From: Microcaldota archaeon | GTDB lineage: Archaea; Micrarchaeota; Micrarchaeia; Norongarragalinales; UBA8480 | Length of the DNA: 14,349 nucleotides | Reading direction: 5' to 3' | NCBI GenBank assembly: GCA_023247085.1 | Contig: JAHFHC010000001.1 | Location: 1 to 14,349, forward strand | Part shown: positions 1 through 13,423 of the stretch, one piece after another | Layout of the letters: each line of letters starts with the position of its first letter | Position numbering within the stretch: position 1 is the first letter of the stretch | Program-made: the position numbers and the translations under genes | Notes under the pieces: model-generated | Seen by the model: only the letters and a program-made list of their open reading frames with translations | What the model was told of the DNA's origin: nothing | Database searches by the model: none

Positions 1-788
1 ATTGGAATACAGTGACCACCGACACCGGGCCCAGGTTGATGAATATTTACTCGCGGGTGCTTATTTGCAAGTTCAATTACATCAAATACATTAACTCCAA
101 ACTGTTCACAGAGAAGCGCCAGCTCATTTGCAAAGCCAATATTGACATCTCGAAACGTATTTTCGCTTAGTTTCACTATTTCAGCCGTAGTAGCGGTCGT
201 AGGATATATCTTACCCCCAGTTACAATTTTAGAATAAAATTCAACTGCCGTTTTAGTGCTTTTTTCATCTATTCCGCCAATAACCCGATCGTTATTCACA
301 ATTTCGTATAGTGTTTTACCTGGAAATGCCCGTTCAGGACAATGCGCTAGCATAAAATCTTTACCTGCTTTTAACCCGCTTTTCTTCTCTATTAACTCAC
401 GTACCATTACGCTAGTTGTATTTGGAGAAATAGTTGATTCAATCACTAGAAGCGCGCCTTTTTTGATAAAGCAAGCAATTGAAGAAACAGCATTTTGTAA
501 TGGCACAGCATCCATTTTTCGATTTTTTACGGGCGTAGGAACAGAAATTATTATTACGTCAGCTTCACTGCATTTTGATGCATCAACTGAAGCAACTAGC
601 TTTTTTGCCTTTACAACATTCGGCAATAGTTCTGCAAAACCAGGCTCTTCAAAAGGTGCAACTCCCCCCTGTACTTTTTCAACTTTCTTAGAGTCAATAT
701 CAATTCCAGTTACATCTACGCCTGCTTTTGCAAAAAGACATGCAGTAGGTAAACCAATGTAACCTAATCCAACTACGCATAATTTCAT
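1..788 (-). CDS. Nucleotide-sugar 6-dehydrogenase, UDP-ManNAc dehydrogenase type (3' end cut off by window)
   Basis: This enzyme family oxidises C6 of a UDP-sugar to a carboxylate in two NAD+-dependent steps, here most likely giving UDP-N-acetylmannosaminuronate or a similar uronate in the cytoplasm. Reading from ATG at 788-786 gives 262 codons before the window edge. Visible are the Rossmann motif GLGYIG (residues 7-12), VPTP after the dinucleotide fold, CPERAFPG, a central FRDVNIGFANELA segment with the conserved Lys and Asn just before it, and the catalytic cysteine in GVGGHCIP (Cys260). The family usually has about 420-440 residues, so roughly 160 C-terminal residues lie outside. The GGHCIP form fits the WecC/WbpA branch better than classical UDP-glucose dehydrogenases (GGSCFPKD). 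It is divergent to the DUF354 gene across a 71-bp gap. The family call is firm; the exact substrate is inferred. Confidence 0.93.
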   Translation of the reverse strand, partial: MKLCVVGLGYIGLPTACLFAKAGVDVTGIDIDSKKVEKVQGGVAPFEEPGFAELLPNVVKAKKLVASVDASKCSEADVIIISVPTPVKNRKMDAVPLQNAVSSIACFIKKGALLVIESTISPNTTSVMVRELIEKKSGLKAGKDFMLAHCPERAFPGKTLYEIVNNDRVIGGIDEKSTKTAVEFYSKIVTGGKIYPTTATTAEIVKLSENTFRDVNIGFANELALLCEQFGVNVFDVIELANKHPRVNIHQPGPGVGGHCIP

Positions 789-814
789 GTAGAACAACTC
801 ATTTTAAACCAATA

Positions 815-859: not shown

Positions 860-1876
860 ATGAACGAAACAATTTGGTTTGATGTAACTAATTCACCGCA
901 TGTATTTTTCTTAGAGCCTTTTATGAAATATTTTAAAAAAAAGGGTTTTAATGTACACGTAACTACACGGCAATTTTACCGGTTAGATGAAATACTTAAC
1001 AATCGTGGTATCGAATATCACAGTGTAGGGCGACATTTTGGAAAAAATTTAGCTGCAAAAGCAGTTGGAATGGCTGAACGCGTTACAGCACTCACGCTGC
1101 ATATAAAAAAAATAAAGCCAATCGCATGTATAGCCGCAGGTTCTCCTTATGCAATGGCCGCTTCAAAGTTACTTCGAATTCCAAGCTTTTGGATTACTGA
1201 CAACGATATCAGTGCGCACATGGTTAATTTTGGAGCACGTTTTGCAACACGAGTCTTTCTACCTGAATACAGTCATATTAATTTTTATGAAAAACATGGA
1301 GTAAAGAAAAGCCATATAGTGACTTTCAAAGGATTAAAAGAAGATTTTTACTTGCATGGATTTAAACCAGATAAAAATTACTTCAAAAAAATAGGTTTAA
1401 GTGGAAAAATTGCGGTTATTCGTTCTGAACCAAGCCACGCCGTTTACTTCCATGGCGAAAAACAAAATGAAGCAGCTATAATAGAAACACTTCAAGAAAA
1501 TGGGTTTAGCGTAATCTACCTTCCACGCAGTAAAGACGAAGAACAAAAAACTCGTGCTGCTTTTCCAAATGTTTTTGTTCCCGAAACCGCACTTGATGGT
1601 CAAAACCTTCTTGCTAATTCTGAGATACTAATAGGCGCAGGCGGAAGTATGAATCGAGAAGCAGTTGTACTTGGAACAAAAGTATTATCAACATACAGTG
1701 GCCCTTCACTCGGTGTAGACGAATGGCTAATTAAAGAAAAATATATGATACACAATGTAAATCCTTCAAAAATAGACCTAAAGCAATTTATCACAACTAA
1801 ACTAAATAAGTACAACAGTACTGAAAAGGGTTTTAAGACTGTGGCAAGTGAAATAGAAAGTGTAATTCAGGCATAG
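860..1876 (+). CDS. DUF354 family protein (glycosyltransferase / UDP-GlcNAc 2-epimerase-like fold)
   Basis: A 338-residue member of the DUF354 family, which has the GT-B double-Rossmann architecture related to UDP-GlcNAc 2-epimerases and MurG/LpxB-like transferases. Visible family marks are the N-terminal segment WFDVTNSPHVFFLEP, the GRHFGK segment near residue 60, the AGSPYAMAASKLLRIPS stretch, and a C-terminal nucleotide-binding-like segment GAGGSMNREAVVLGT near residue 260. No signal peptide or membrane helix is evident, so it is probably cytoplasmic or peripheral. The reaction of this family is not established; in a glycan cluster a sugar-transfer or nucleotide-sugar role is likely. The ATG at 860 immediately precedes the conserved first strand, and no clear SD precedes it. 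It converges on the fused oxidoreductase gene with 9 bp between the stop codons. Confidence 0.88.
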   Translation: MNETIWFDVTNSPHVFFLEPFMKYFKKKGFNVHVTTRQFYRLDEILNNRGIEYHSVGRHFGKNLAAKAVGMAERVTALTLHIKKIKPIACIAAGSPYAMAASKLLRIPSFWITDNDISAHMVNFGARFATRVFLPEYSHINFYEKHGVKKSHIVTFKGLKEDFYLHGFKPDKNYFKKIGLSGKIAVIRSEPSHAVYFHGEKQNEAAIIETLQENGFSVIYLPRSKDEEQKTRAAFPNVFVPETALDGQNLLANSEILIGAGGSMNREAVVLGTKVLSTYSGPSLGVDEWLIKEKYMIHNVNPSKIDLKQFITTKLNKYNSTEKGFKTVASEIESVIQA

Positions 1877-1885
1877 TCATTTAGT

Positions 1886-3949
1886 TTATATCCCATGCAA
1901 TTGATTGCTTACCCTGAACGCAATTCGCGTAGCGGTAAATGCAGCATTAAGGTTTGGCAACGGATCAACTTGCCCTTGAATCGCTCTTGCAAAAAATTGC
2001 ATTTCTTCGTTATGCCCTTTGTTTTGTTTTCCACTGTAAAGAACTTCGCGTTTTCCATTTGTGTTAGCAATAACATTATGGAAATCTGTTAATTCAATTG
2101 TTGTATTTCCAAACAATACTTCAATTTTTTCTTTTTCAGTTTTATCGCTTCCGCTAGTAGTATATAACAAATTGCATAGTGATCCATTTTCAAAAACTAT
2201 TGCAACTGCCACATTTTGAAAGTCAATTGTAGAAGCAGATACCGAAGTGATTTGTGAATCACAAAGATACAAAAATACATCAAAGAAATGCACCATTTCT
2301 CCAATTATTCGTCCGCCTTCGTTTAAGTCATTTAAGAAATGATCCAACGAAAGTGAATCCGCTTTTACACGATAATTTACAACAACTGGCCGGTTTCCAA
2401 TAAATTCCTTAACTTTTTGCAATACTGGCGAATAACGGCGATTATGGCCAACAACTAGCACTTTAGAATGTTTTTTCAATGCGTGTTCGATTTTGTTTAA
2501 TTGTGAATCGTTTAATGCAAGTGGCTTTTCTACAAATACGTGTTTACCTTGTTCTAATGCTTTTACAACTAAATCAGCATGAGTAGAATGGCGAGTTGTT
2601 ATTGCAACTGTATTTGTAGACTTATCTGCTAATGCATCTTCGTAATTTGAATAGCATTTGTTTGACTTGCATAATTCTGCAACGTAGCGCGCATTAGAGG
2701 GGGTCATAGAAGCAACGCTTGTAATTGAAATTCCGGATTTTGCAATTGCTGAAATCAAAGTGCTTTTTGCAAAGTTACCGGGTCCGATTAAACAAAGTGA
2801 AGCCCGACTAGAATGAAAAGCGGGTTTAAGCTCAAGATGATGTGTTTTTTCTACAAGCGGGTATTTAATGACTAAAACATTTATTTTTCCGCGTTGTAAT
2901 TCGCTAAAACTTTTCAATACGTATTGAGGCTCGCAAATTTTGTCAACTAAAGATTCAACTTGAAGTCCCTTACTAAGGAGTTCTACGAACGCCTGTAAGT
3001 TACGCTGTTCAGTCCAACGTACGTAGGCATATGGGTAGTCAACTCCTTTTTCTTCGTATTGTTGGTCATATCGACCAGGACCATAAGAAGTTGAAATAAG
3101 CACGTCAAGTTCACGCTTGTAAAGTGCTTCTCTATCTAAATTAAGTCCAACGTCGCCTACTATGATCAATTTTCCTTTTCGTCTACATAATTTAATTGCA
3201 TTATTTGCTAATTCACTTGAAGGAGATGCTGCGGTTAGTAGAACATAATCCGCCCCGTTGTTATTTGAAAAATTGGCAACTTCTTTTCCTAATTGATTTG
3301 GCGTAACCGCGTTTATTCCTAGCTTCTTTGCTTTTGACAATTTTTGTGCTGAAATATCAACGCCGATTACTTCAACGCCATTTAATTGAAGTATACGACT
3401 TGCTAGTAATCCAACTAACCCAAGTCCGTATACAACCGCTTTATCGCCAATTTTAGCATCTGCACGGCGAACAGCTTGAAGTGCAATTGCGCCTACGCCT
3501 GCAAAACACGCCTGAGAAGTTAAAACCCCTTGCGGGATTTTTACAACTAAATTCTTTGGAATAACAGCATAATTAGCATGTACGGCATAACCTGCGCCAG
3601 CACAAGCAACTCGATCTCCGAGTTTAACATGTGAGACATTCCGGCCAACTTGTACAACTATACCGGAATTACTATAGCCTAATAGCGATGGCTCGTTTAT
3701 CTTAGTCTTAGCGATTTGCAACGCTTGTAAAAACCCGCGTTGAGAAACTAGTTTTTTAAAACGTTCAACTAGTTTTTTATCTCGTAAAACTTCTAGAAAC
3801 GCGCTTTGACGTTTTTTAACTGAAGATAATTCCGTTCCTGTGCTGACTAAAGAATACTCTACGCGTACGAGAACTTCGTCATCATTTGCAACTGGCGTTG
3901 GCTCTTCTTCTAATGACAATTTACCGTGTTTTACTAGTAGTTGATTCAT
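1886..3949 (-). CDS. Bi-domain oxidoreductase: MDR (zinc-type alcohol dehydrogenase fold) fused to Gfo/Idh/MocA
   Basis: A single 687-residue chain carries two NAD(P)-dependent oxidoreductase modules. Residues about 1-345 form an MDR domain with a GroES-like part and the dinucleotide motif GLGLVG (175-180). Residues about 385-687 form a Gfo/Idh/MocA domain with GPGNFA (389-394), the signature EKP (474-476) and a GEMVHFFD segment ending near 557 whose His matches the usual catalytic region. The usual catalytic zinc ligands of the MDR part look replaced: the Cys position reads STGTE and the GHE position reads LGYSNSG, so this half is probably not a zinc alcohol dehydrogenase. I chose ATG at 3949 over the in-frame GTG at 3958, because that GTG is the start of a GTGAT ribosome-binding motif and family members begin with a similar MxQLL segment. 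It lies 13 nt downstream of the heparinase-like gene and is probably cotranscribed. Substrates are unknown; a nucleotide- or lipid-linked sugar is inferred. Confidence 0.92.
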   Translation of the reverse strand: MNQLLVKHGKLSLEEEPTPVANDDEVLVRVEYSLVSTGTELSSVKKRQSAFLEVLRDKKLVERFKKLVSQRGFLQALQIAKTKINEPSLLGYSNSGIVVQVGRNVSHVKLGDRVACAGAGYAVHANYAVIPKNLVVKIPQGVLTSQACFAGVGAIALQAVRRADAKIGDKAVVYGLGLVGLLASRILQLNGVEVIGVDISAQKLSKAKKLGINAVTPNQLGKEVANFSNNNGADYVLLTAASPSSELANNAIKLCRRKGKLIIVGDVGLNLDREALYKRELDVLISTSYGPGRYDQQYEEKGVDYPYAYVRWTEQRNLQAFVELLSKGLQVESLVDKICEPQYVLKSFSELQRGKINVLVIKYPLVEKTHHLELKPAFHSSRASLCLIGPGNFAKSTLISAIAKSGISITSVASMTPSNARYVAELCKSNKCYSNYEDALADKSTNTVAITTRHSTHADLVVKALEQGKHVFVEKPLALNDSQLNKIEHALKKHSKVLVVGHNRRYSPVLQKVKEFIGNRPVVVNYRVKADSLSLDHFLNDLNEGGRIIGEMVHFFDVFLYLCDSQITSVSASTIDFQNVAVAIVFENGSLCNLLYTTSGSDKTEKEKIEVLFGNTTIELTDFHNVIANTNGKREVLYSGKQNKGHNEEMQFFARAIQGQVDPLPNLNAAFTATRIAFRVSNQLHGI

Positions 3950-3953
3950 TTTA

Positions 3954-3958
3954 ATCAC
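3954..3958 (-). promoter_or_regulatory. Ribosome binding site GTGAT that decides the oxidoreductase start
   Basis: GTGAT pairs with AUCAC at the 5' side of the 16S rRNA anti-SD, and a 4-nt spacer separates it from ATG at 3949. The asnB gene has the same motif with the same spacer. This argues that the GTG read as a possible start is part of the ribosome binding site. Confidence 0.5.
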
Positions 3959-3962
3959 AGGT

Positions 3963-5696
3963 TTAATATCGTATATTGAAACTGAACATTTTAGGCATTA
4001 AAACCCTTTCTAGTTTAAGAACAACTGCTTTACCCTCTTTTTTTTCACCAAAAATAAGTGAATACCATTTTTTTTCTATATTTCCAGCTAATTCACGGGG
4101 TTTTTCAAGCAAAATATTATCAACTTTAAATCCATTAGCCGCTTTTTTGACATTTAAATTCCCACAGTGAAAATTCCATTGCAAGTTGTGAATTCCAGTG
4201 CCTTTGAACCAATCTCGAATTTCAATTGATCTTTTATCTAGATTTATTCTAATCAAACGCTCATGCACGATTTGCCGGTCACTATAGCCATAATGTCTTC
4301 CAGCAATTACAATAGCATTGCCAATTTTATTTGCAAATGTTATTTCAGCTTTTGTTTTGTCAAATAATTTGAATAATTCGTTTTCATCAAAGTAATTTTG
4401 TTCACGAGTGTCAACTTGAGCGGTATTATGATACGCAGTTGACCGAAATAAGTTTCGCATTTTTGGATTACCGGTGTAAATATAAGCTCCCGGATCAATG
4501 AAAATTGGTTTCCCGTTTACATCTAGAGTAAACGCAAGGCTCGAATTATGCGTGTGCCCTCCCGTTTCAAGCGTTCCAGTTGGACCAGCAAAAAACGATA
4601 ATAGTAATTCGGCATCGCGATAAATGCAAAATCCACTTTTAGCAAAAGTGAACAAGCCCAATGTTGAATTTGGTATTTTCAAACATTTATTGCCAAGTTC
4701 TATTACATCTTCAAAACCATTAGCTAAATAATTTTTAAATAATCTGCCAGAGTCATTATCGCCAATTGATAAAAGAGAACCATCTGATCGCGTAATTATT
4801 TTCAAAAATACAAACATTTTTGTCAGTTGATTTTCAAAACTCTTGTCAATTTTTAAGTTGCGTTTCTTCATTAGCAAGTAAGCAACTAGAAACATTTCAG
4901 TTGCAAACCCGTGGTACCAAGTGCTTTTTTCAAAATCGACCCCATCACCTAATACTTGATATTGCATTTCTTTTTGTATTTCAGATGATGCAAATTCAAG
5001 CCACTTTTTACCATTTTCTGTTTTTTCAAATAGTAAACCTGCAAATAGTAAACCTAAAATATTTGTTAAATAGTGGTTATTTCTTATCTTTGGACTCCAT
5101 TCAAGATGATTGACAATAAAATCAGCGTGGACAAACAACGCTAAAAAAAACTTGTTCCAAAAAATAATGTCTTTTTTATCTGACTTATAAAAAATCGAAG
5201 CAGCAACGCATAAGTTTATTAGTCGTATAGAAACTTCCATTGACGATTTCCAATTTGGGGAACTACTGACTGGATTTTTTTCAATCCAATCAATTGTAAA
5301 TTGCTTAAATGCTAGCAAAAATGATTTATCCTGCGTTTTGTTATAAGCTTCAGCTAATACTGGCGCAAAATGAAAACGATTTAATTCCCACACGATACGA
5401 ACATCGCATTGCGCCTCGCCAAAAACTTTACCAAATACATAATCTACATTCCAATTTATCTTATCGCTTGTACTTGAACCAAAAACGGGTATTCGACTGT
5501 TTACAATACGTTTTGCAGTTTTAAGGGATGTACCATTTTTACAGAAGTGAGAAAAATAAATTAGATTAACTGGCTCAAAGTTGCTTGGCAACTTAGTGGG
5601 TGTGTTTTGTTTTGAAAAATGTGTTGACACTAGTTTTTTAACAATAAATCCCGTAGGATAGTGTTCTAAATATCTTTTTATTGTTTGAAACCGCAT
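3963..5696 (-). CDS. Heparinase II/III family protein (alginate-lyase-like fold)
   Basis: 577 residues with the two-part layout of the heparinase II/III family. An N-terminal alpha/alpha-toroid (about 90-340) contains WELNR (103-107), a segment with NNHYL (206-210) and DGVDFEKSTWYHGF (251-264). A C-terminal beta-sandwich (about 345-577) contains GGHTHNSS (379-386), the IDPGAYIYTGNP segment and the STAYHNT segment. Family members cleave uronate-containing polysaccharides by beta-elimination; His208 and Tyr261 are the residues I would test first as catalytic, by analogy only. The N-terminus (MRFQTIKRYLEHYPTG) is not a signal peptide, so the protein seems cytoplasmic or membrane-peripheral, which is odd for a lyase. 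ATG at 5696 follows a TATA box at near-leaderless distance. It is the first gene of a pair with the fused oxidoreductase, a linkage I recall from bacterial exopolysaccharide loci. A non-lytic or assembly role is possible. Confidence 0.88.
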   Translation of the reverse strand: MRFQTIKRYLEHYPTGFIVKKLVSTHFSKQNTPTKLPSNFEPVNLIYFSHFCKNGTSLKTAKRIVNSRIPVFGSSTSDKINWNVDYVFGKVFGEAQCDVRIVWELNRFHFAPVLAEAYNKTQDKSFLLAFKQFTIDWIEKNPVSSSPNWKSSMEVSIRLINLCVAASIFYKSDKKDIIFWNKFFLALFVHADFIVNHLEWSPKIRNNHYLTNILGLLFAGLLFEKTENGKKWLEFASSEIQKEMQYQVLGDGVDFEKSTWYHGFATEMFLVAYLLMKKRNLKIDKSFENQLTKMFVFLKIITRSDGSLLSIGDNDSGRLFKNYLANGFEDVIELGNKCLKIPNSTLGLFTFAKSGFCIYRDAELLLSFFAGPTGTLETGGHTHNSSLAFTLDVNGKPIFIDPGAYIYTGNPKMRNLFRSTAYHNTAQVDTREQNYFDENELFKLFDKTKAEITFANKIGNAIVIAGRHYGYSDRQIVHERLIRINLDKRSIEIRDWFKGTGIHNLQWNFHCGNLNVKKAANGFKVDNILLEKPRELAGNIEKKWYSLIFGEKKEGKAVVLKLERVLMPKMFSFNIRY

Positions 5697-5717: not shown

Positions 5718-5730
5718 GTTTTATAAGTAT
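5718..5730 (-). promoter_or_regulatory. TATA-box-like promoter for the heparinase-like gene (near-leaderless)
   Basis: On the minus strand this reads ATACTTATAAAAC, a good archaeal TATA box. The palindromic core TTATAA (5721-5726) is centred about 27 nt upstream of the ATG at 5696, so initiation at the usual distance would place the transcript start at or next to the start codon. The core reads the same on the plus strand and could also serve asnB with a leader of about 20 nt. Confidence 0.5.
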
Positions 5731-5759: not shown

Positions 5760-5764
5760 GTGAT
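5760..5764 (+). promoter_or_regulatory. Ribosome binding site GTGAT upstream of asnB
   Basis: GTGAT is followed by four T residues and then ATG at 5769. It matches the anti-SD and has the same spacing as the site before the fused oxidoreductase. It overlaps the in-frame GTG that could be mistaken for the start codon. Confidence 0.5.
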
Positions 5765-5768
5765 TTTT

Positions 5769-7712
5769 ATGTGTGGCATTTGTGGATTCTATGGTTTTGA
5801 AGATGCATCTTTATTGAAAAAAATGCGATCAGCTATAAATCATCGCGGGCCAGATGCTGAAGGAATCTATACTGATAAGCTATGTTCTCTCGGGCATAAA
5901 CGATTATCAATTATTGATCTTTCACCTGCAGGTAAGATGCCAATGTCAAATGAAGATGGAACTATTTGGGTTTCTTTTAATGGAGAAATTTATAATTTTG
6001 CGGGCATTAGAAAAGATTTAGAAGAAAAAGGGCATGAGTTCAAGAGTCATACTGATAGCGAATGCATTTTGCATGCTTATGAAGAATACGGAAAAGACTG
6101 CGTAAAGCGATTCGGTGGAATGTTTGCTTTTGCTTTATGGGATTCAAACAAAAAACTGCTAATGCTAGCAAGAGACCGAATTGGGGTGAAACCGCTTTAT
6201 TATTACTATAATTCTATCAATGGCAAATTGTTATTTGCTTCAGAAATTAAGTCCATTTTAGCTGCAGATTTTGTACCTAGAGAAGTCAATTTAGAAGCGT
6301 TTTATCACTATTTGACATTCATCACTACTCCAGCCCCCAACACACTTTTCAAAGGCATAAATAAACTACCAGGCGGGCACATTGCAATTATTCAAAATAA
6401 TAAACTCAAAATTGAAAAATACTGGGAAGTATCTGATTTTCCACTTGACTTTTCAATGACTGAAGAAAAAGCACAGCACTTAACCAGCGAAAAATTACTT
6501 GATTCCGTTAGACAACGTATGATTTCAGATGTTCCACAAGGGGTATTCTTATCCGGTGGACTAGATTCATCGGCAATTGTTGCGCTAATGAGTGAATTAA
6601 GTGAAGAACCAGTTAACACTTTTTCAATAGCTACTGGTACAAGTGAAAAATACAATGAACTGAAATATGCTAAAATTGTAGCTGATAAGTTCAATACAAA
6701 TCACAAAGAAATTCACATGAATGAATTAGATATTGTAAACTTTCTTCCAACTTTAATATACCAAGCAGATGAACCAATTGGAGATCCAGTAAATATTCCA
6801 ATTTACTATTTATCACAAGCAGCAAGAAAAAACAACGTAATTGTCTTGCAAGTAGGAGAAGGAAGCGATGAATTGTTTTGCGGTTACCCATTTTATAATT
6901 TAGAAGTAAAAATGAGCAAACTATTACACGCGCTACAAAAAGTTCCCGCACCTTTACGAATTGTCGGCAAAGAAGTAGCAAAAATAGCTGCTTCAAAGAA
7001 ATACCGCACAATGCCCGCGGTTATAGAAGATTATTTTGACCGTATAGCAAAAAATCAGGATATCCCTTGGCACACGGTGCTTTGTTTTACTGAATACGAA
7101 AAACCAGAATTGTTATCTAAACAGATAAAACATAATGAAAATGATGAAAACTCATATTCATTAATAGAAAAAACAACTAAAAGTGCTAAAACAAATAACG
7201 CAGATAATAACAACACTAAACGCCACGCTGCGGATAATTTACTTCAACGAGAGCGCATATTTGAATTAAAGACACGCATAGCGGAACTACTATTGATGCG
7301 CGTGGATAAATTTACAATGGCGCACGCAATTGAAGCAAGGGTACCATTTCTTGATTATAAACTAGTTGAATTCGAAATGACCGTACCGCCATATTCAATA
7401 CACTTGAAAAATGGAGTTACAAAATATATCTTAAAAAAAGCAATGCAAAATAAACTACCGCGTGAAATTATTCACCGAAAGAAAACTGGATTCAATGTAC
7501 CAGTATACGAAAATATGGGAAGTGACATACGCTCAATAGCAGAAAATGAATTTGAAACCCCCGAAATGGCTAAATTCTTTAATATACAAAAAGCACTGGA
7601 AATCATAAAGAACAAAGAAACAAAACAAATTGGAAACACTAGCTTCCGCACATGGATCTTGTTAAATTTTGCACTTTGGCATAAATATTGGATACGAGGA
7701 GAAAAAATATAG
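5769..7712 (+). CDS. asnB: Glutamine-hydrolysing asparagine synthase family amidotransferase
   Basis: 647 residues with an N-terminal class II glutamine amidotransferase domain and a C-terminal ATP-dependent synthetase domain. The start at 5769 is set by chemistry: it gives MCGICGFYG, so Cys2 becomes the N-terminal nucleophile after Met removal. RGPD (26-29), FNGEIYN (70-76) and TDSE (95-98) complete the glutaminase site, ammonia passes to the second domain, and SGGLDSS (262-268) is the ATP-pyrophosphatase P-loop. MRVDKFTMAHAIEARVPFLD is the conserved helix of the synthetase half. An Asn/Lys/Thr-rich stretch (about 454-488) interrupts the C-terminal domain and is probably a disordered surface loop. 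The enzyme may make asparagine, but in a glycan cluster with two uronate-forming dehydrogenases an alternative is amidation of a uronic acid, as proposed for WbpS. It is followed at once by the GT2 gene, so the two are probably cotranscribed. Confidence 0.93.
   Translation: MCGICGFYGFEDASLLKKMRSAINHRGPDAEGIYTDKLCSLGHKRLSIIDLSPAGKMPMSNEDGTIWVSFNGEIYNFAGIRKDLEEKGHEFKSHTDSECILHAYEEYGKDCVKRFGGMFAFALWDSNKKLLMLARDRIGVKPLYYYYNSINGKLLFASEIKSILAADFVPREVNLEAFYHYLTFITTPAPNTLFKGINKLPGGHIAIIQNNKLKIEKYWEVSDFPLDFSMTEEKAQHLTSEKLLDSVRQRMISDVPQGVFLSGGLDSSAIVALMSELSEEPVNTFSIATGTSEKYNELKYAKIVADKFNTNHKEIHMNELDIVNFLPTLIYQADEPIGDPVNIPIYYLSQAARKNNVIVLQVGEGSDELFCGYPFYNLEVKMSKLLHALQKVPAPLRIVGKEVAKIAASKKYRTMPAVIEDYFDRIAKNQDIPWHTVLCFTEYEKPELLSKQIKHNENDENSYSLIEKTTKSAKTNNADNNNTKRHAADNLLQRERIFELKTRIAELLLMRVDKFTMAHAIEARVPFLDYKLVEFEMTVPPYSIHLKNGVTKYILKKAMQNKLPREIIHRKKTGFNVPVYENMGSDIRSIAENEFETPEMAKFFNIQKALEIIKNKETKQIGNTSFRTWILLNFALWHKYWIRGEKI
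7696..7701 (+). promoter_or_regulatory. Possible SD site GAGGAG before the GT2 gene
   Basis: GAGGAG lies inside the last codons of asnB. It is 11 nt before a TTG (7713), 17 nt before an ATG (7719) and 23 nt before a second ATG (7725), so by spacing alone it favours the TTG. The conserved first strand of the GT2 fold favours 7725. Confidence 0.3.
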
Positions 7713-8896: not shown

Positions 8897-9808
8897 ATGA
8901 ACATATTAATTACGGGTGGTTCTGGTTTTATTGGTAGGCACCTATCAGCGCAGCTACTCGAAGAGAAACATAAGGTCACCATAGTAGATCAAATGCCAAC
9001 AAAAATTCTGGGCGTAAACTACATAAAAGGCACAGTAATGGATTTTGATACGCTCAGTTTAGCACTCAAAGGTCAAGAAGTAGCCATAAATTTGGCGTCG
9101 GTTGTTGGCGTACAAAAAAATGAAGAACGTCCAGCAGAAGCACTAGATGTTAATATTATTGGCACAAAAAACGTGCTAGAAGCTTGCCGTAAAAATAATG
9201 TACGAAAAATAATTTATTCTTCGTCTTCAGAAGCTTATGGTGAACCAATAAAAATTCCAATTGAGGAAAGCGATTCACCAATTCCAATAACTACTTATGG
9301 AATAGCTAAATTAGCAGGTGAAGAATACATAAAGGCGTACGCAAAAGCGTATGGAATAAAATATACTATTTTTAGATTTTTCAGTGTTTATGGTCCGGAT
9401 CAATTAACTGATTTTGTATTACCGCGATTTGTTGCCAATGCAATTAAAAATGAGCCATTAATTATCCACGGGGATGGTTCACAAATACGTGCTTTTTGTC
9501 ATATTGACGACATCATTAGAGGAATTTCATTGTCGCTTATAAGAGGAGATAATGAAATAATTAATCTGGGAAATGATCGAGAAGTAGTTAGTATGAAGGA
9601 ATTAGCACAGCGAATAATTAAATTAACAAACTCGAAAAGTGAATTACAAATTGTGCCGTTTGCTAATACAGAAAGAGCACGTGGAAAAGAAATTTTACAC
9701 AGGGTACCTGCTCTTGAAAAAGCTAAAAAATTATTAGGTTATGCGCCTTCAGTACAACTAGAAGACGGTCTATATTCAGTCATAGCACACTTAAGGGATA
9801 AAAAATGA
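8897..9808 (+). CDS. NAD-dependent epimerase/dehydratase (extended SDR, nucleotide-sugar acting)
   Basis: 303 residues. The Rossmann motif TGGSGFIG (6-13) and Asp31 point to NAD(H). SSSEAYG (109-115) and the pair Tyr134/Lys138 (YGIAK) form the catalytic Ser-Tyr-Lys set, RFFSVYGP (160-167) follows, and the HGDGSQIRAFCHIDD segment binds the nucleotide-sugar. Such enzymes are UDP-sugar 4-epimerases or 4,6-dehydratases; the motifs do not separate these well. Coupling to a 6-dehydrogenase through a 4-nt overlap suggests a UDP-hexose or UDP-HexNAc 4-epimerase, comparable to WbpP/WbpO or TviC/TviB pairs. It is cytoplasmic, with no signal or membrane segment. It is the first gene of a three-gene operon. 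Confidence 0.9.
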   Translation: MNILITGGSGFIGRHLSAQLLEEKHKVTIVDQMPTKILGVNYIKGTVMDFDTLSLALKGQEVAINLASVVGVQKNEERPAEALDVNIIGTKNVLEACRKNNVRKIIYSSSSEAYGEPIKIPIEESDSPIPITTYGIAKLAGEEYIKAYAKAYGIKYTIFRFFSVYGPDQLTDFVLPRFVANAIKNEPLIIHGDGSQIRAFCHIDDIIRGISLSLIRGDNEIINLGNDREVVSMKELAQRIIKLTNSKSELQIVPFANTERARGKEILHRVPALEKAKKLLGYAPSVQLEDGLYSVIAHLRDKK

Positions 9809-11202
9809 GCTTATATTTACGAGATTTAACTCAAGCGTTAAAACAAATTCAGGAAAAAAAGATTAATATAACAGTTATTGGCGTAGGTACAATTGGCTTG
9901 CCCTTAGCTACTTTTTTGGCTTCAGCGGGGTATAACGTAACTGGCTTAGATATTAATGAAGCAAGAGTTAAGCAAATAAATGATGCAACGGTTGTTTTCG
10001 AATATAGTGACAAATTAAAGAAAGCAGTTAAACTAAATAAATTGCGCGCGACAACTAAAAGTTCAGATGCGCTTAAAGATGCTGAAATTGTATTTGTTTG
10101 CGTTCCAACTCCGCTAAACGAAAACCTAGCAATGAATAACTCTAACCTTCTTAGTGCAACGGATGCAATTATAAAAAACATCAAAGCAGGCATGCTTGTA
10201 ATTTACGAAAGTTCAGTTTCAATTGGAACAACTCGAACGCTTATTAAAAGAATAGAAGAAAATACAAAATTAAAAATTGGAAAAGACATAGGAATTGCTT
10301 ATTGCCCTGAGCGGTATAACCCAACCTTACCCCGCGAAATTCTCCCTCAAGTAATTTACAATTCAAAACAATCTGATATAGCTTATTATACAATAGATAA
10401 GGTGAGCAGAGTAGTTGGCGGATCAGATGAAAAAAGCCTAAAATTAGCCAAAAGAATTTATTCAGAATTTATAACAACCGAAGTAAAAGAAGTTTCTTCA
10501 ATAGAAACTGCAGAAGCCACAAAATTACTTGAAAATATTTTTAGAGACGTTAATATTGGACTTGTGAATGAATTAGCTACCATTTTTCCTACTTTTGGCG
10601 TTGACGTATACGAAGTTATAGACGCCGCTAAAACGAAACCTTTTGCATTTTTACCACATTATCCTGGAGCTGGAGTTGGGGGAGAATGTATCCCCGTTGA
10701 TACTTGGTATTTAATTCGCCAAGCTGAAGAAAATGGGCTTAATCCAAAACTGCTTAAAGTGACTCGTGAAGTAAATGATTCAATGCCCGCTCATACTGTG
10801 AAATTACTTGAAGAAGAGTTAGCTCAACATTCAAAAAAAATAAGTGGCAGTAAAATTAGTGTTTTGGGGCTAAGTTACAAGAAAAACATTTACGATACCC
10901 GTTTAAGCCCGTCTCTCGAAATTGTGAAAATATTAAAAAGTAAAGGCGCTAAAGTTGTAATTTACGATCCAATTGTTCAACAGCATGATTCACGTTACGA
11001 ATTAAATTCATTTGAAGATACATTCAAGAATAGCGACGCATTGATGTTGATAACTGATCATGACGCATTTCACCTTATTGACTTAAAAACAGTTAAAGAT
11101 TTAATGAAAACTCCCATCGTCATAGATGGAAGACAATTCTTTAATAAAACAAAACTTAAATCCCTAGGCTTTAGCTATCGTTGCATAGGTGAACCAAAAT
11201 AA
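9805..11202 (+). CDS. Nucleotide-sugar 6-dehydrogenase with an unusual GGECIP active-site motif
   Basis: 465 residues of the UDP-glucose/UDP-ManNAc dehydrogenase family. A 20-residue N-terminal lead precedes GVGTIG (26-31); the usual aromatic residue in GxGYxG is Thr29 here. Later come VPTP, CPERYNP, RVVGG, the central FRDVNIGLVNELA, and GVGGECIPVD with the catalytic Cys295. The residue before the cysteine is Glu294 where the paralogue in this window has His and UDP-glucose dehydrogenases have Ser. The stretch between CPERYNP and RVVGG is also longer than I expect for the family. The protein should form a UDP-uronate from the product of the epimerase encoded just upstream (4-nt ATGA overlap). 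The ATG is preceded by AGGGA, a weak ribosome site. It is a separate gene from the one at the left edge and the substrates probably differ. Confidence 0.93.
   Translation: MSLYLRDLTQALKQIQEKKINITVIGVGTIGLPLATFLASAGYNVTGLDINEARVKQINDATVVFEYSDKLKKAVKLNKLRATTKSSDALKDAEIVFVCVPTPLNENLAMNNSNLLSATDAIIKNIKAGMLVIYESSVSIGTTRTLIKRIEENTKLKIGKDIGIAYCPERYNPTLPREILPQVIYNSKQSDIAYYTIDKVSRVVGGSDEKSLKLAKRIYSEFITTEVKEVSSIETAEATKLLENIFRDVNIGLVNELATIFPTFGVDVYEVIDAAKTKPFAFLPHYPGAGVGGECIPVDTWYLIRQAEENGLNPKLLKVTREVNDSMPAHTVKLLEEELAQHSKKISGSKISVLGLSYKKNIYDTRLSPSLEIVKILKSKGAKVVIYDPIVQQHDSRYELNSFEDTFKNSDALMLITDHDAFHLIDLKTVKDLMKTPIVIDGRQFFNKTKLKSLGFSYRCIGEPK
11187..11192 (+). promoter_or_regulatory. SD site AGGTGA before the RmlD-like gene
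   Basis: AGGTGA matches the anti-SD fully and lies 9 nt before ATG 11202, inside the preceding gene. It contrasts with the leader-poor first genes of the transcription units. Confidence 0.55.
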
Positions 11203-11915
11203 TGACTACTATAATCACAGGCGGCAGAGGTAGGCTCGGAAAATATATAGCAAAAGAAATGTCTAACGCGATTATACCGCCTCATACCGAGTTAGATGTA
11301 ACAAACAGACAAGCCGTTTTTGAATTTTTTGCAAAGTACAAACCAGATACAGTAATACATTTAGCTGCTTTAGTGGATGTACGTGAATCTCAAAATAATA
11401 ATGAAAAAGCATGGAAAGTAAATGTCGGCGGCACTGAAAACGTAGTCGATGCTGCATTTGCGGTTAACCCAAATTGTTATTTTATTTACATATCTAGTGC
11501 GTGTGTATTCAACGGCGAACGTGGCGGATATACTGAAGAAGATGTACCAAACCCAGTAAATTATTATGGTTTAACAAAAGTAGTAGCTGAAGAAGCAGTA
11601 AGAAAACTTCCAAATCATTTGATCATTCGCACGGATTTTGTTGAACGCACAAAATGGAGATATCCTGGCGCGTATATAGACCGATTCTCTACTTGTGTTT
11701 TTTCTGATACATTGGCAAAGGCGCTAAAAGGCGTTATAGAAAAAAAAGTGACTGGATTAATACACCTAACCGGTAAGCGCAAAATTTCACATTATGACTT
11801 AGCAAAAATAACTACACCAGAAGTCCAGCCAATAAAATTAAAAGACGCAGATATTCCAATGCCTCAAGATCAGAGCATAAAAAGTATAAGGGGATGGGAT
11901 AACTTAGAGTTATAA
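11202..11915 (+). CDS. RmlD-like SDR, sugar-nucleotide reductase
   Basis: 237 residues similar to dTDP-4-dehydrorhamnose reductases and related SDRs. The N-terminal TGGRGRLG (6-13) binds the cofactor, followed by HLAALVDVR and the WKVNVGGTENV segment, then SSACVF (98-103) and Tyr122/Lys126 (YGLTK) as the catalytic pair. At about 237 residues it is shorter than typical RmlD (about 290), mainly in the C-terminal substrate part. It may reduce a 4-keto nucleotide-sugar. No RmlA, RmlB or RmlC homologue occurs in the window, so dTDP-rhamnose is not supported. Its ATG overlaps the stop of the dehydrogenase by one base (TAATG), which implies coupled translation and a role in the same pathway. It converges with the flippase gene. 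Confidence 0.85.
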   Translation: MTTIITGGRGRLGKYIAKEMSNAIIPPHTELDVTNRQAVFEFFAKYKPDTVIHLAALVDVRESQNNNEKAWKVNVGGTENVVDAAFAVNPNCYFIYISSACVFNGERGGYTEEDVPNPVNYYGLTKVVAEEAVRKLPNHLIIRTDFVERTKWRYPGAYIDRFSTCVFSDTLAKALKGVIEKKVTGLIHLTGKRKISHYDLAKITTPEVQPIKLKDADIPMPQDQSIKSIRGWDNLEL

Positions 11916-11953: not shown

Positions 11954-13423
11954 CTATTTTAGTCTCATTAATTTTTGTGCATCTTTAAATTTGTTAATTG
12001 GACCTAAAATAATTGCAAAAATTAGTTCATAAAGCTCTTTAAACGTCATAAACTTAGTTATGTGCATAACAGACAAAGTTATTGCTATTAAAATAGGCAC
12101 TATGACAAATGCTTCTTTTACAAAAAGAGACATTGTAAAAAATGCAACCGTAGCGATTACAAATGAAATTATATTTTTTAAAAATAGTATATAAAGTCGA
12201 AGCTCTTTACGCGTTTCATAAAAGAAATACCCAATTAAAAATAAACTGTCAAAAGCATATATCGCAATTGTTTCTAAAACACCTAATTTTCTAAATAAAA
12301 CTATTAAGCCCAGATTTACTAAATTAAGAAAAATGCCGGAATTTGTCCATATATAATTCCATTTTGTATTAGCTAGTGACAGATTCGTAATAAAACCAGA
12401 TAGCAATGAAATCACTAAAAAACCAGCGTATAATCCTAAAAATGGAATTGCAATTTCGTATTTAGCGCCAAAAATTATCGGAAGAATAATAATTCCAATA
12501 AATGAAAAACAAAGCCCTGAGATTAAAGAAGTAGCCACAAATTTTCTTAACCATATTTGAACTGACCCGTGATTTTTTACACTCGTCTGTTGAGCCATTT
12601 TTGGAAAAATGACTGCTAAAAGTGCTGAAAAAGGAATTATCAATAACTGACCATACTGGTCAAGTATTCGAAGTATTGCATTATTAATTGGATCATTTAT
12701 AAAAATTAAGGATCGCATATAGAAGCTTACCATTGCAGCAAGAATAAGCGGCCACCATAGACGTTTTATTGAATATTTAATGACATTCATCGCTGCTGAA
12801 AAATTAAATATTTGTTTATTTTGATACAATAATAAAAAGGCAACTAGAGCCGGTAATAAATAACTAAATAAATAAGCGCGTACAACTGCATCAGCCGAAC
12901 TAGAAAAAAATGAAAAGAAGAAGGGGCTAAGTCGAGCAGATAATTGCGTCGCTAAAAATATAACCGGCTGAAGCGCTACAAAAAAAGCGTAATATTTGAA
13001 TTTTTGCATTCCTTGAAAGGCAGATATAGAAAAAGTATAGAGCACAAAAAGAAAACTACATAAAATTATCAATGGAATCGAACTGGAAATTCCCAGACTA
13101 AGTAATTGTGAAATATAAGGTATTAAAAACAAAAAAAGTAAACTAAAAATTCCATAAATAACGGATAAAACTACAAAAACTGAAAAAGCTAAATCAATTG
13201 GTTTTTTTGATTTTGAAATTAACACCGTCGAAGTAACTGGTAAATTAAATGCTGCTACTGGCAATATGCTCATAAATAAAAATATACCAAGGTCAAGAGC
13301 CCCCATTTCATTGGCGGATAAGCTACGTGCAACTAAGGCAATTCCGAAAAACGATGCGATCTTAGCTAAAACAGTAGTTACGGCTATTACTGAACTGTTT
13401 GAAAGCACATCTGATTTAGGCAT
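11954..13423 (-). CDS. Polysaccharide flippase (MOP superfamily, Wzx/PST type)
   Basis: 489 residues, largely hydrophobic, with about 12-14 predicted membrane helices by eye. The first lie near residues 11-32, 42-69, 78-103 and 114-134. The N-terminus (VTTVLAKIASFFGIALVARSLS) and the loop FQGMQKFKYYA (136-146) are family marks of polysaccharide exporters that flip lipid-linked oligosaccharides across the cytoplasmic membrane. It would move the product of this locus to the cell surface. ATG at 13423 lies about 40 nt from a TATA box shared with the divergent methyltransferase gene. No polymerase or oligosaccharyltransferase is seen in the window, so the acceptor stays open. The family call is firm; the cargo is inferred from the neighbours. 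Confidence 0.9.
   Translation of the reverse strand: MPKSDVLSNSSVIAVTTVLAKIASFFGIALVARSLSANEMGALDLGIFLFMSILPVAAFNLPVTSTVLISKSKKPIDLAFSVFVVLSVIYGIFSLLFLFLIPYISQLLSLGISSSIPLIILCSFLFVLYTFSISAFQGMQKFKYYAFFVALQPVIFLATQLSARLSPFFFSFFSSSADAVVRAYLFSYLLPALVAFLLLYQNKQIFNFSAAMNVIKYSIKRLWWPLILAAMVSFYMRSLIFINDPINNAILRILDQYGQLLIIPFSALLAVIFPKMAQQTSVKNHGSVQIWLRKFVATSLISGLCFSFIGIIILPIIFGAKYEIAIPFLGLYAGFLVISLLSGFITNLSLANTKWNYIWTNSGIFLNLVNLGLIVLFRKLGVLETIAIYAFDSLFLIGYFFYETRKELRLYILFLKNIISFVIATVAFFTMSLFVKEAFVIVPILIAITLSVMHITKFMTFKELYELIFAIILGPINKFKDAQKLMRLK

Follow-up and report, generated by a model that had tools for sequence, protein, structure and literature searches.

A 14,349-nucleotide (nt) stretch of a Microcaldota archaeon genome (contig JAHFHC010000001.1; "the window" below means this whole stretch) carries two closely spaced genes on the reverse strand. 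The upstream gene (positions 3963 to 5696) encodes a 577-amino-acid (aa) protein with a heparinase II/III (PL12-like) fold, and the downstream gene (1886 to 3958) encodes a 690-aa oxidoreductase that fuses a medium-chain dehydrogenase/reductase (MDR) module to a Gfo/Idh module. A biosynthetic role of this pair is well supported by the linkage of the two genes, the lack of an export signal, the gene content of the surrounding loci, and published capsule mutants. We give about an even chance to the more specific proposal that the heparinase-fold protein is a cytosolic uronosyl C5-epimerase acting on a lipid-linked glycan, in the manner of dermatan sulfate epimerase (DS-epi1). Both families are already known and named. 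In the literature that we searched, which left most subscription journals uncovered, we found neither the activity proposed here for the cytosolic branch of the heparinase fold nor mention of a genomic position that it shares with C5-epimerases.

Linkage of the two genes and location of their products

An earlier note, made from the sequence alone, had described a heparinase II/III-like gene next to an MDR-Gfo/Idh fusion, and the open reading frames and Pfam domains bear this out. The heparinase-fold product matches Hepar_II_III_N (8.8e-29) and Hepar_II_III_C (1.5e-33), well above the family cutoffs (PF16889, 101.3 bits with a cutoff of 22; PF07940, 116.7 bits with a cutoff of 24). It reaches only 82.3 bits against the cutoff of 700 of NF045573, the equivalog model for the lyase HepC. 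The oxidoreductase matches ADH_N, ADH_zinc_N (2.8e-15), and then GFO_IDH_MocA (1.2e-20), with a zinc-less MDR module at about aa 1 to 370 and a Gfo/Idh module at about aa 387 to 690 of one chain. NCBI names such fusions "bi-domain-containing oxidoreductase," and the window protein aligns with annotated members over 97 to 99% of its length at about 33% identity.

The last base of the heparinase stop codon is 3963 and the bi-domain reading frame opens with a GTG at 3958, a gap of 4 nt; the 13-nt spacing given earlier holds from an in-frame ATG at 3949, three codons further on. Because the gap is short, a promoter shared by the two genes, as the earlier note supposed, is plausible. The TATA-like sequence TTATAAAA (5719 to 5726, reverse strand) lies 23 nt before the heparinase ATG, where a leaderless transcript could well have its TATA box. 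It makes a weak candidate, as the window holds five such matches, the number expected by chance. A sigma-70 promoter scan was set aside as meaningless in an archaeal genome.

Scanning contigs with the window heparinase alone retrieved no relative, and a broad heparinase alignment lacks a sufficiently conserved stretch; we therefore surveyed GTDB genomes with the bi-domain alignment. This yielded at least 584 members, from which we kept the 80 loci most similar to the window protein, so the rates given here are not those of an unbiased sample. A heparinase gene lies within about 10 kb of the bi-domain gene in 31 of these 80 loci (23 of 47 when only loci above 20 kb are counted), always on the same strand (31/31), and directly adjoins it in 14, downstream in 12 and upstream, as in the window, in 2. 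PF07940 is matched by all 26 heparinases scanned from bi-domain loci and, in our alignment of such proteins, by 27/27, with PF16889 found in 25/27. Across loci, the protein distances of one partner correlate with those of the other (r of 0.56 overall and 0.77 for direct neighbors; Mantel test, 0/2,000 permutations each), which fits joint inheritance as a unit. The co-occurrence survey that the earlier note called for thus finds a pairing far above chance. The loci are clusters for polysaccharide biosynthesis: on plasmids of Streptomyces, Parabacteroides, and Sphingobium the pair sits beside wecB, wecC, AsnB, or glycosyltransferase family 4 (GT4) genes, and AsnB occurs in 22 of the 80 loci. Within the window's own phylum, both genes are rare (PF07940 in 4 and the bi-domain enzyme in 2 of 295 genomes), so horizontal gain is likely; for the same reason the phylum says nothing about co-occurrence.

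The heparinase-fold protein, which starts MRFQTIKRYLEHYPTGF, shows no signal peptide or membrane helix by Kyte-Doolittle hydropathy, the measure used here rather than SignalP. Mean hydropathy peaks at 0.78 in 12-aa windows over the first 60 aa and at 1.69 in 19-aa windows over the whole protein. There is no in-frame start before a stop upstream of the ATG at 5696, which leaves no room for a hidden signal peptide, and no clear export signal or membrane helix was seen in 37 aligned relatives. In many relatives the N terminus is instead short, basic, and amphipathic (e.g., WYLRRLSRMGPREIGGR). The cytosolic location posited in the earlier note is thus supported. The family name and the annotation "alginate lyase family protein" would suggest an ordinary extracellular or periplasmic degradative lyase with an oxidoreductase as an unrelated neighbor; given the linkage just described, the missing signal peptide, and the biosynthetic neighborhoods, we regard this explanation as very improbable.

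Genetic evidence comes from Vibrio vulnificus YJ016, in which VV0357, annotated as a zinc-binding dehydrogenase, adjoins VV0358, a heparinase III-like protein (pfam07940). In-frame deletion of either gene left capsule absent by immunoblot, and complementation restored it (PMC6037467). These genes are likely homologous to the window pair, as the annotation and adjacency of VV0357 are those to be expected of a bi-domain enzyme. As capsule is lost in either mutant, a purely degradative role is very unlikely and both partners are needed for synthesis. The authors of that study proposed a clean-up role for VV0358 as a lyase (PMC6037467): it would remove uronate glycans that are misassembled or stalled, a task ascribed to alginate lyases in the periplasm. 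We consider such quality control improbable: the family lacks an export signal, deletion abolishes capsule entirely, and neither the equally essential oxidoreductase nor the replacement by C5-epimerases described below would be explained. The role in cytosolic synthesis suggested by the earlier note thus gains support from linkage, location, wecB/wecC-GT4-AsnB loci, and capsule loss, but its alternative of proofreading finds none.

Other toroid proteins in the heparinase position

Among the 80 bi-domain loci, 31 carry a heparinase, 13 carry a helical protein with an AGE-type fold, and 3 carry a D-glucuronyl C5-epimerase (GLCE; PF06662, E of 3e-53, 5e-47, and 2e-45). The three families never share a locus (hypergeometric P of 1.2e-4; 5e-5 for the 47 loci above 20 kb). 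Each often directly adjoins the bi-domain gene, and the 390-aa AGE-fold protein usually does so. A model of the latter family (pLDDT of 92) best matches cellobiose 2-epimerase (Z of 31.6), a likeness also found by sequence (4e-7), and the family carries a GH88-like Pfam profile. AglQ was described with the same Pfam signature, GH88 included (PMC3827465), and Agl32 is an archaeal C5-epimerase with an AGE-like fold that makes iduronate on a short dolichol phosphate-linked tetrasaccharide (PMC13308652). By these descriptions of fold and profile, the two may be kin of the AGE-fold family. They differ in fold from the window protein, and Agl32, being AGE-like, was rejected as a heparinase homologue. 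On haloarchaeal plasmids, DUF354 adjoins the AGE-fold family (L103, 4723 to 7302; L104, 4622 to 8603). Some members bear the name "antibiotic ABC transporter permease," apparently in error, since the protein has a sugar-epimerase fold.

Three toroid families in one position, one of them a known C5-epimerase family and another resembling a second such enzyme, suggest that the position serves C5 epimerization. Were it degradation, a lyase and a GH88-type hydrolase would be expected together, yet they never co-occur. The assignment of C5 epimerization, drawn from this gene replacement, goes beyond the chemistry of the earlier note and is probable. In the papers on Plesiomonas AltNAcA, WbgZ is named as the C5-epimerase and no link to heparinase is made.

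Fold, active site, and competing chemistries

An AlphaFold2 model of the window heparinase (mean pLDDT of 89, pTM of 0.91) best matches PL12 HepC/heparinase III (4mmi and 5jmd; Z of 34.9 for 4mmi, over about 500 residues at about 22% identity), followed by other toroid lyases. Human DS-epi1 (6hzn) is matched with a Z of 22.7, at 3.4 Å over 482 residues and 14% identity. The toroid plus beta-sandwich arrangement of DS-epi1 is present, but lyases score higher, and fold alone is not decisive. N207, Y261, and H381 align with HepC positions, H381 with the active-site His. H208, Y261, and Y407 probably match the His/double-Tyr motif of DS-epi1, and H381-x-H383...D401 parallels its His450-x-His452...Glu470, with the acidic residue 18 positions on. 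Within this fold, active-site residues do not tell lyase from epimerase, and the His/double-Tyr motif also occurs in lyases; DS-epi1 shows that the fold can epimerize, and its authors note that a lyase may become an epimerase through small changes (PMC8006597). The window protein departs from HepC in having no hydrophobic segment at its N terminus and biosynthetic rather than degradative neighbors, whereas DS-epi1 is a Golgi enzyme acting on chondroitin polymer.

Across 27 heparinases from bi-domain loci, R158, N207, H208, Y261, Y407, H423, R480, and D495 are invariant. Of the residues singled out by the earlier note, His208 and Tyr261 are therefore constant, but His381 is kept in only 20/27 and His383 in 22/27. 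Wherever H381 is lost (7/27), E256 is replaced by Q and R414/R418 are missing as well; these sequences form a second subtype (Q256, P/L381), still near or beside bi-domain genes (loci L030, L038, L063, L067, L073, L074, and L084). In a Sphingobium heparinase beside a bi-domain gene (L014, 9234 to 10946), both His residues of the HxH motif are gone (PSQSD). A Deinococcus homologue between asnB and a UDP-sugar dehydrogenase gene (L005, 5605 to 7605) lacks N207, H208, and Y261 and, judged by these residues, may be inactive. The variable H381 leaves some room for a different function that involves the uronate or its carrier, such as a nucleotide-linked sugar substrate, a different chemistry, or glycan binding and presentation only. 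The constancy of N207, H208, Y261, and Y407 and the activity of solved fold relatives on glycan chains make this family of explanations rather doubtful.

In the bi-domain enzyme, both NAD-binding motifs are intact (GLGLVG and GPGNFA), and the lysine of the Gfo/Idh EKP motif, K478, is kept. G178/G180/G183, G392/G394, E477-K478-P479, and H557 are invariant in the family alignment. The Gly-His-Glu of zinc-dependent MDR enzymes is replaced by G94-Y95-S/A/C, and the S-x-G-T-E stretch of the MDR module is without Cys, each in 6/6 aligned members. In Mesobacillus, the MDR and Gfo/Idh modules are separate neighboring genes. The window MDR module also matches a gene annotated ycjQ (25%, 3e-6). YcjQ and YcjS are guloside/glucoside 3-dehydrogenases of Escherichia coli, one an MDR and the other a Gfo/Idh enzyme, and together they invert a sugar by way of a 3-keto intermediate; they differ from the window enzyme in being catabolic and unfused, with YcjQ zinc-dependent.

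Several observations weigh against C5 epimerization by the heparinase-fold protein. The closest solved proteins by sequence and fold are true lyases (HepC/PL12, Z of 33 to 35), and a site that shares N207, Y261, and H381 with HepC could still eliminate. GLCE is confined to 3 loci, and taken by itself its failure to overlap with heparinase is not significant (P of 0.22). The AGE-fold family also matches unsaturated glucuronyl hydrolases well (Z of about 25), and its reading as a C5-epimerase derives from fold resemblance only. VV0357 is mentioned as having two predicted membrane helices (PMC6037467). Finally, heparinase genes of the same kind occur without a bi-domain gene (L003 to L007 and L107). 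Separately, we noted that in E. coli five plasmid records and four chromosomes (e.g., L007, CP016036.1; L107, NZ_CP162190.1) combine a heparinase II/III gene with wecB-wecC and a gene for a WbuB-like glycosyltransferase but have no bi-domain gene; in the one chromosome inspected, the site is an O-antigen locus flanked by galF and cpsG.

The main rival is a biosynthetic cytosolic lyase. Beta-elimination on a lipid-linked or nascent uronate chain would yield a 4,5-unsaturated residue or fix the length of the chain; the product would be reduced or otherwise processed by the zinc-less MDR module, which counts quinone/enone reductases among its relatives. This reading draws on the PL12 likeness in fold, sequence, and active site; it sits poorly with a position otherwise filled by C5-epimerase-type proteins, with the missing co-occurrence of lyase and GH88-like proteins, and with the loss of H381 in one heparinase subtype. 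We hold it to be unlikely, though the most credible of the alternatives.

Proposed reaction, substrate, and implications

In the epimerase proposal, the pair would form a cytoplasmic uronate-tailoring unit in surface-glycan synthesis. The heparinase-fold protein would bind a short polyprenol-linked glycan and neutralize the uronate carboxylate, and a tyrosine of the Asn-His/Tyr/Tyr site would abstract H5, as in the lyase relatives. C5 would then be reprotonated from the opposite face without expulsion of the C4 substituent, giving conversions such as D-N-acetylmannosaminuronic acid (D-ManNAcA) to L-N-acetylgulosaminuronic acid (L-GulNAcA) or D-glucuronic acid (D-GlcA) to L-iduronic acid (L-IdoA). 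By analogy with YcjQ/YcjS, one module of the MDR-Gfo/Idh fusion may oxidize a hydroxyl, either on that sugar or on a neighboring one, and the other reduce the ketone, a redox epimerization. The fold, the missing export signal, the genetic linkage, and the published loss of capsule for the likely homologous pair are on record; C5 chemistry, a lipid-linked substrate, and everything said of the oxidoreductase's role are what we infer from them. If the oxidoreductase acted at C3 of the same residue, stereochemistry alone indicates that D-ManNAcA would become L-N-acetylgalactosaminuronic acid (L-GalNAcA). More speculatively, the bi-domain enzyme and an interchangeable toroid C5-epimerase (heparinase, GLCE, or Agl32-AGE fold) might form one widespread two-center module for lipid-linked uronates (e.g., redox at C3 and proton exchange at C5, D-ManNAcA to L-GalNAcA), with animal dermatan sulfate epimerase as kin of the heparinase-fold version; we think this broad generalization improbable at present.

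Genes of the wecB/wecC type occur in 13 to 14 of the 31 heparinase loci. The window's own genome (archaeal, 0.89 Mb, 92% complete, 36 contigs) encodes a UDP-GlcNAc 2-epimerase (wecB, 1e-92), an AglB homologue, and two dehydrogenases for which the archaeal UDP-ManNAc dehydrogenase model is the nearest match. Together these make conversion of ManNAcA to L-GulNAcA our first guess. L-GulNAcA is a constituent of the Vibrio cholerae exopolysaccharide VPS, and its origin by C5 inversion of ManNAcA has been proposed without an assigned enzyme (PMC3901696).

Around the pair, a gene truncated at the window edge (3 to 797, reverse strand; NF040825, 314 bits over 265 aa) resembles those for UDP-N-acetylmannosamine dehydrogenase and is the likely source of a UDP-linked uronate. 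DUF354, a putative GT-B-like glycosyltransferase, is the convergent neighbor (860 to 1876, forward strand; Pfam, 3.1e-47). The divergent neighbor is an AsnB-type amidotransferase (5760 to 7712, forward strand; TIGR01536, 2e-148) that could amidate a uronate. Positions 8897 to 11915 hold genes for an NAD-dependent epimerase, a UDP-sugar dehydrogenase, and RmlD-like short-chain dehydrogenases/reductases. These overlap by 1 to 4 nt and form a second operon for nucleotide sugars, on the strand opposite to the pair; within this stretch, 9805 to 11202 (forward strand; TIGR03026, 7e-120; NF040825, 3e-92) encodes the window's second UDP-sugar (uronate-forming) dehydrogenase. A 489-aa polytopic membrane protein at 11954 to 13423 is flippase-like in size and hydrophobicity and has no Pfam or NCBIfam match at an E value of 0.001. 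In a same-genus genome, the bi-domain gene lies at a contig edge and is followed by an RmlD-like gene and DUF354.

Many "alginate lyase/heparinase family" proteins of O-antigen, capsule, and archaeal glycan clusters carry a degradative annotation. If those without export signals are C5-epimerases, this would explain how surface glycans come by L-GulNAcA, L-IdoA, and related L-uronates, perhaps including the C5 inversion in V. cholerae VPS. They would then be a prokaryotic counterpart of dermatan sulfate epimerase, and the family of bi-domain oxidoreductases would gain its first functional frame.

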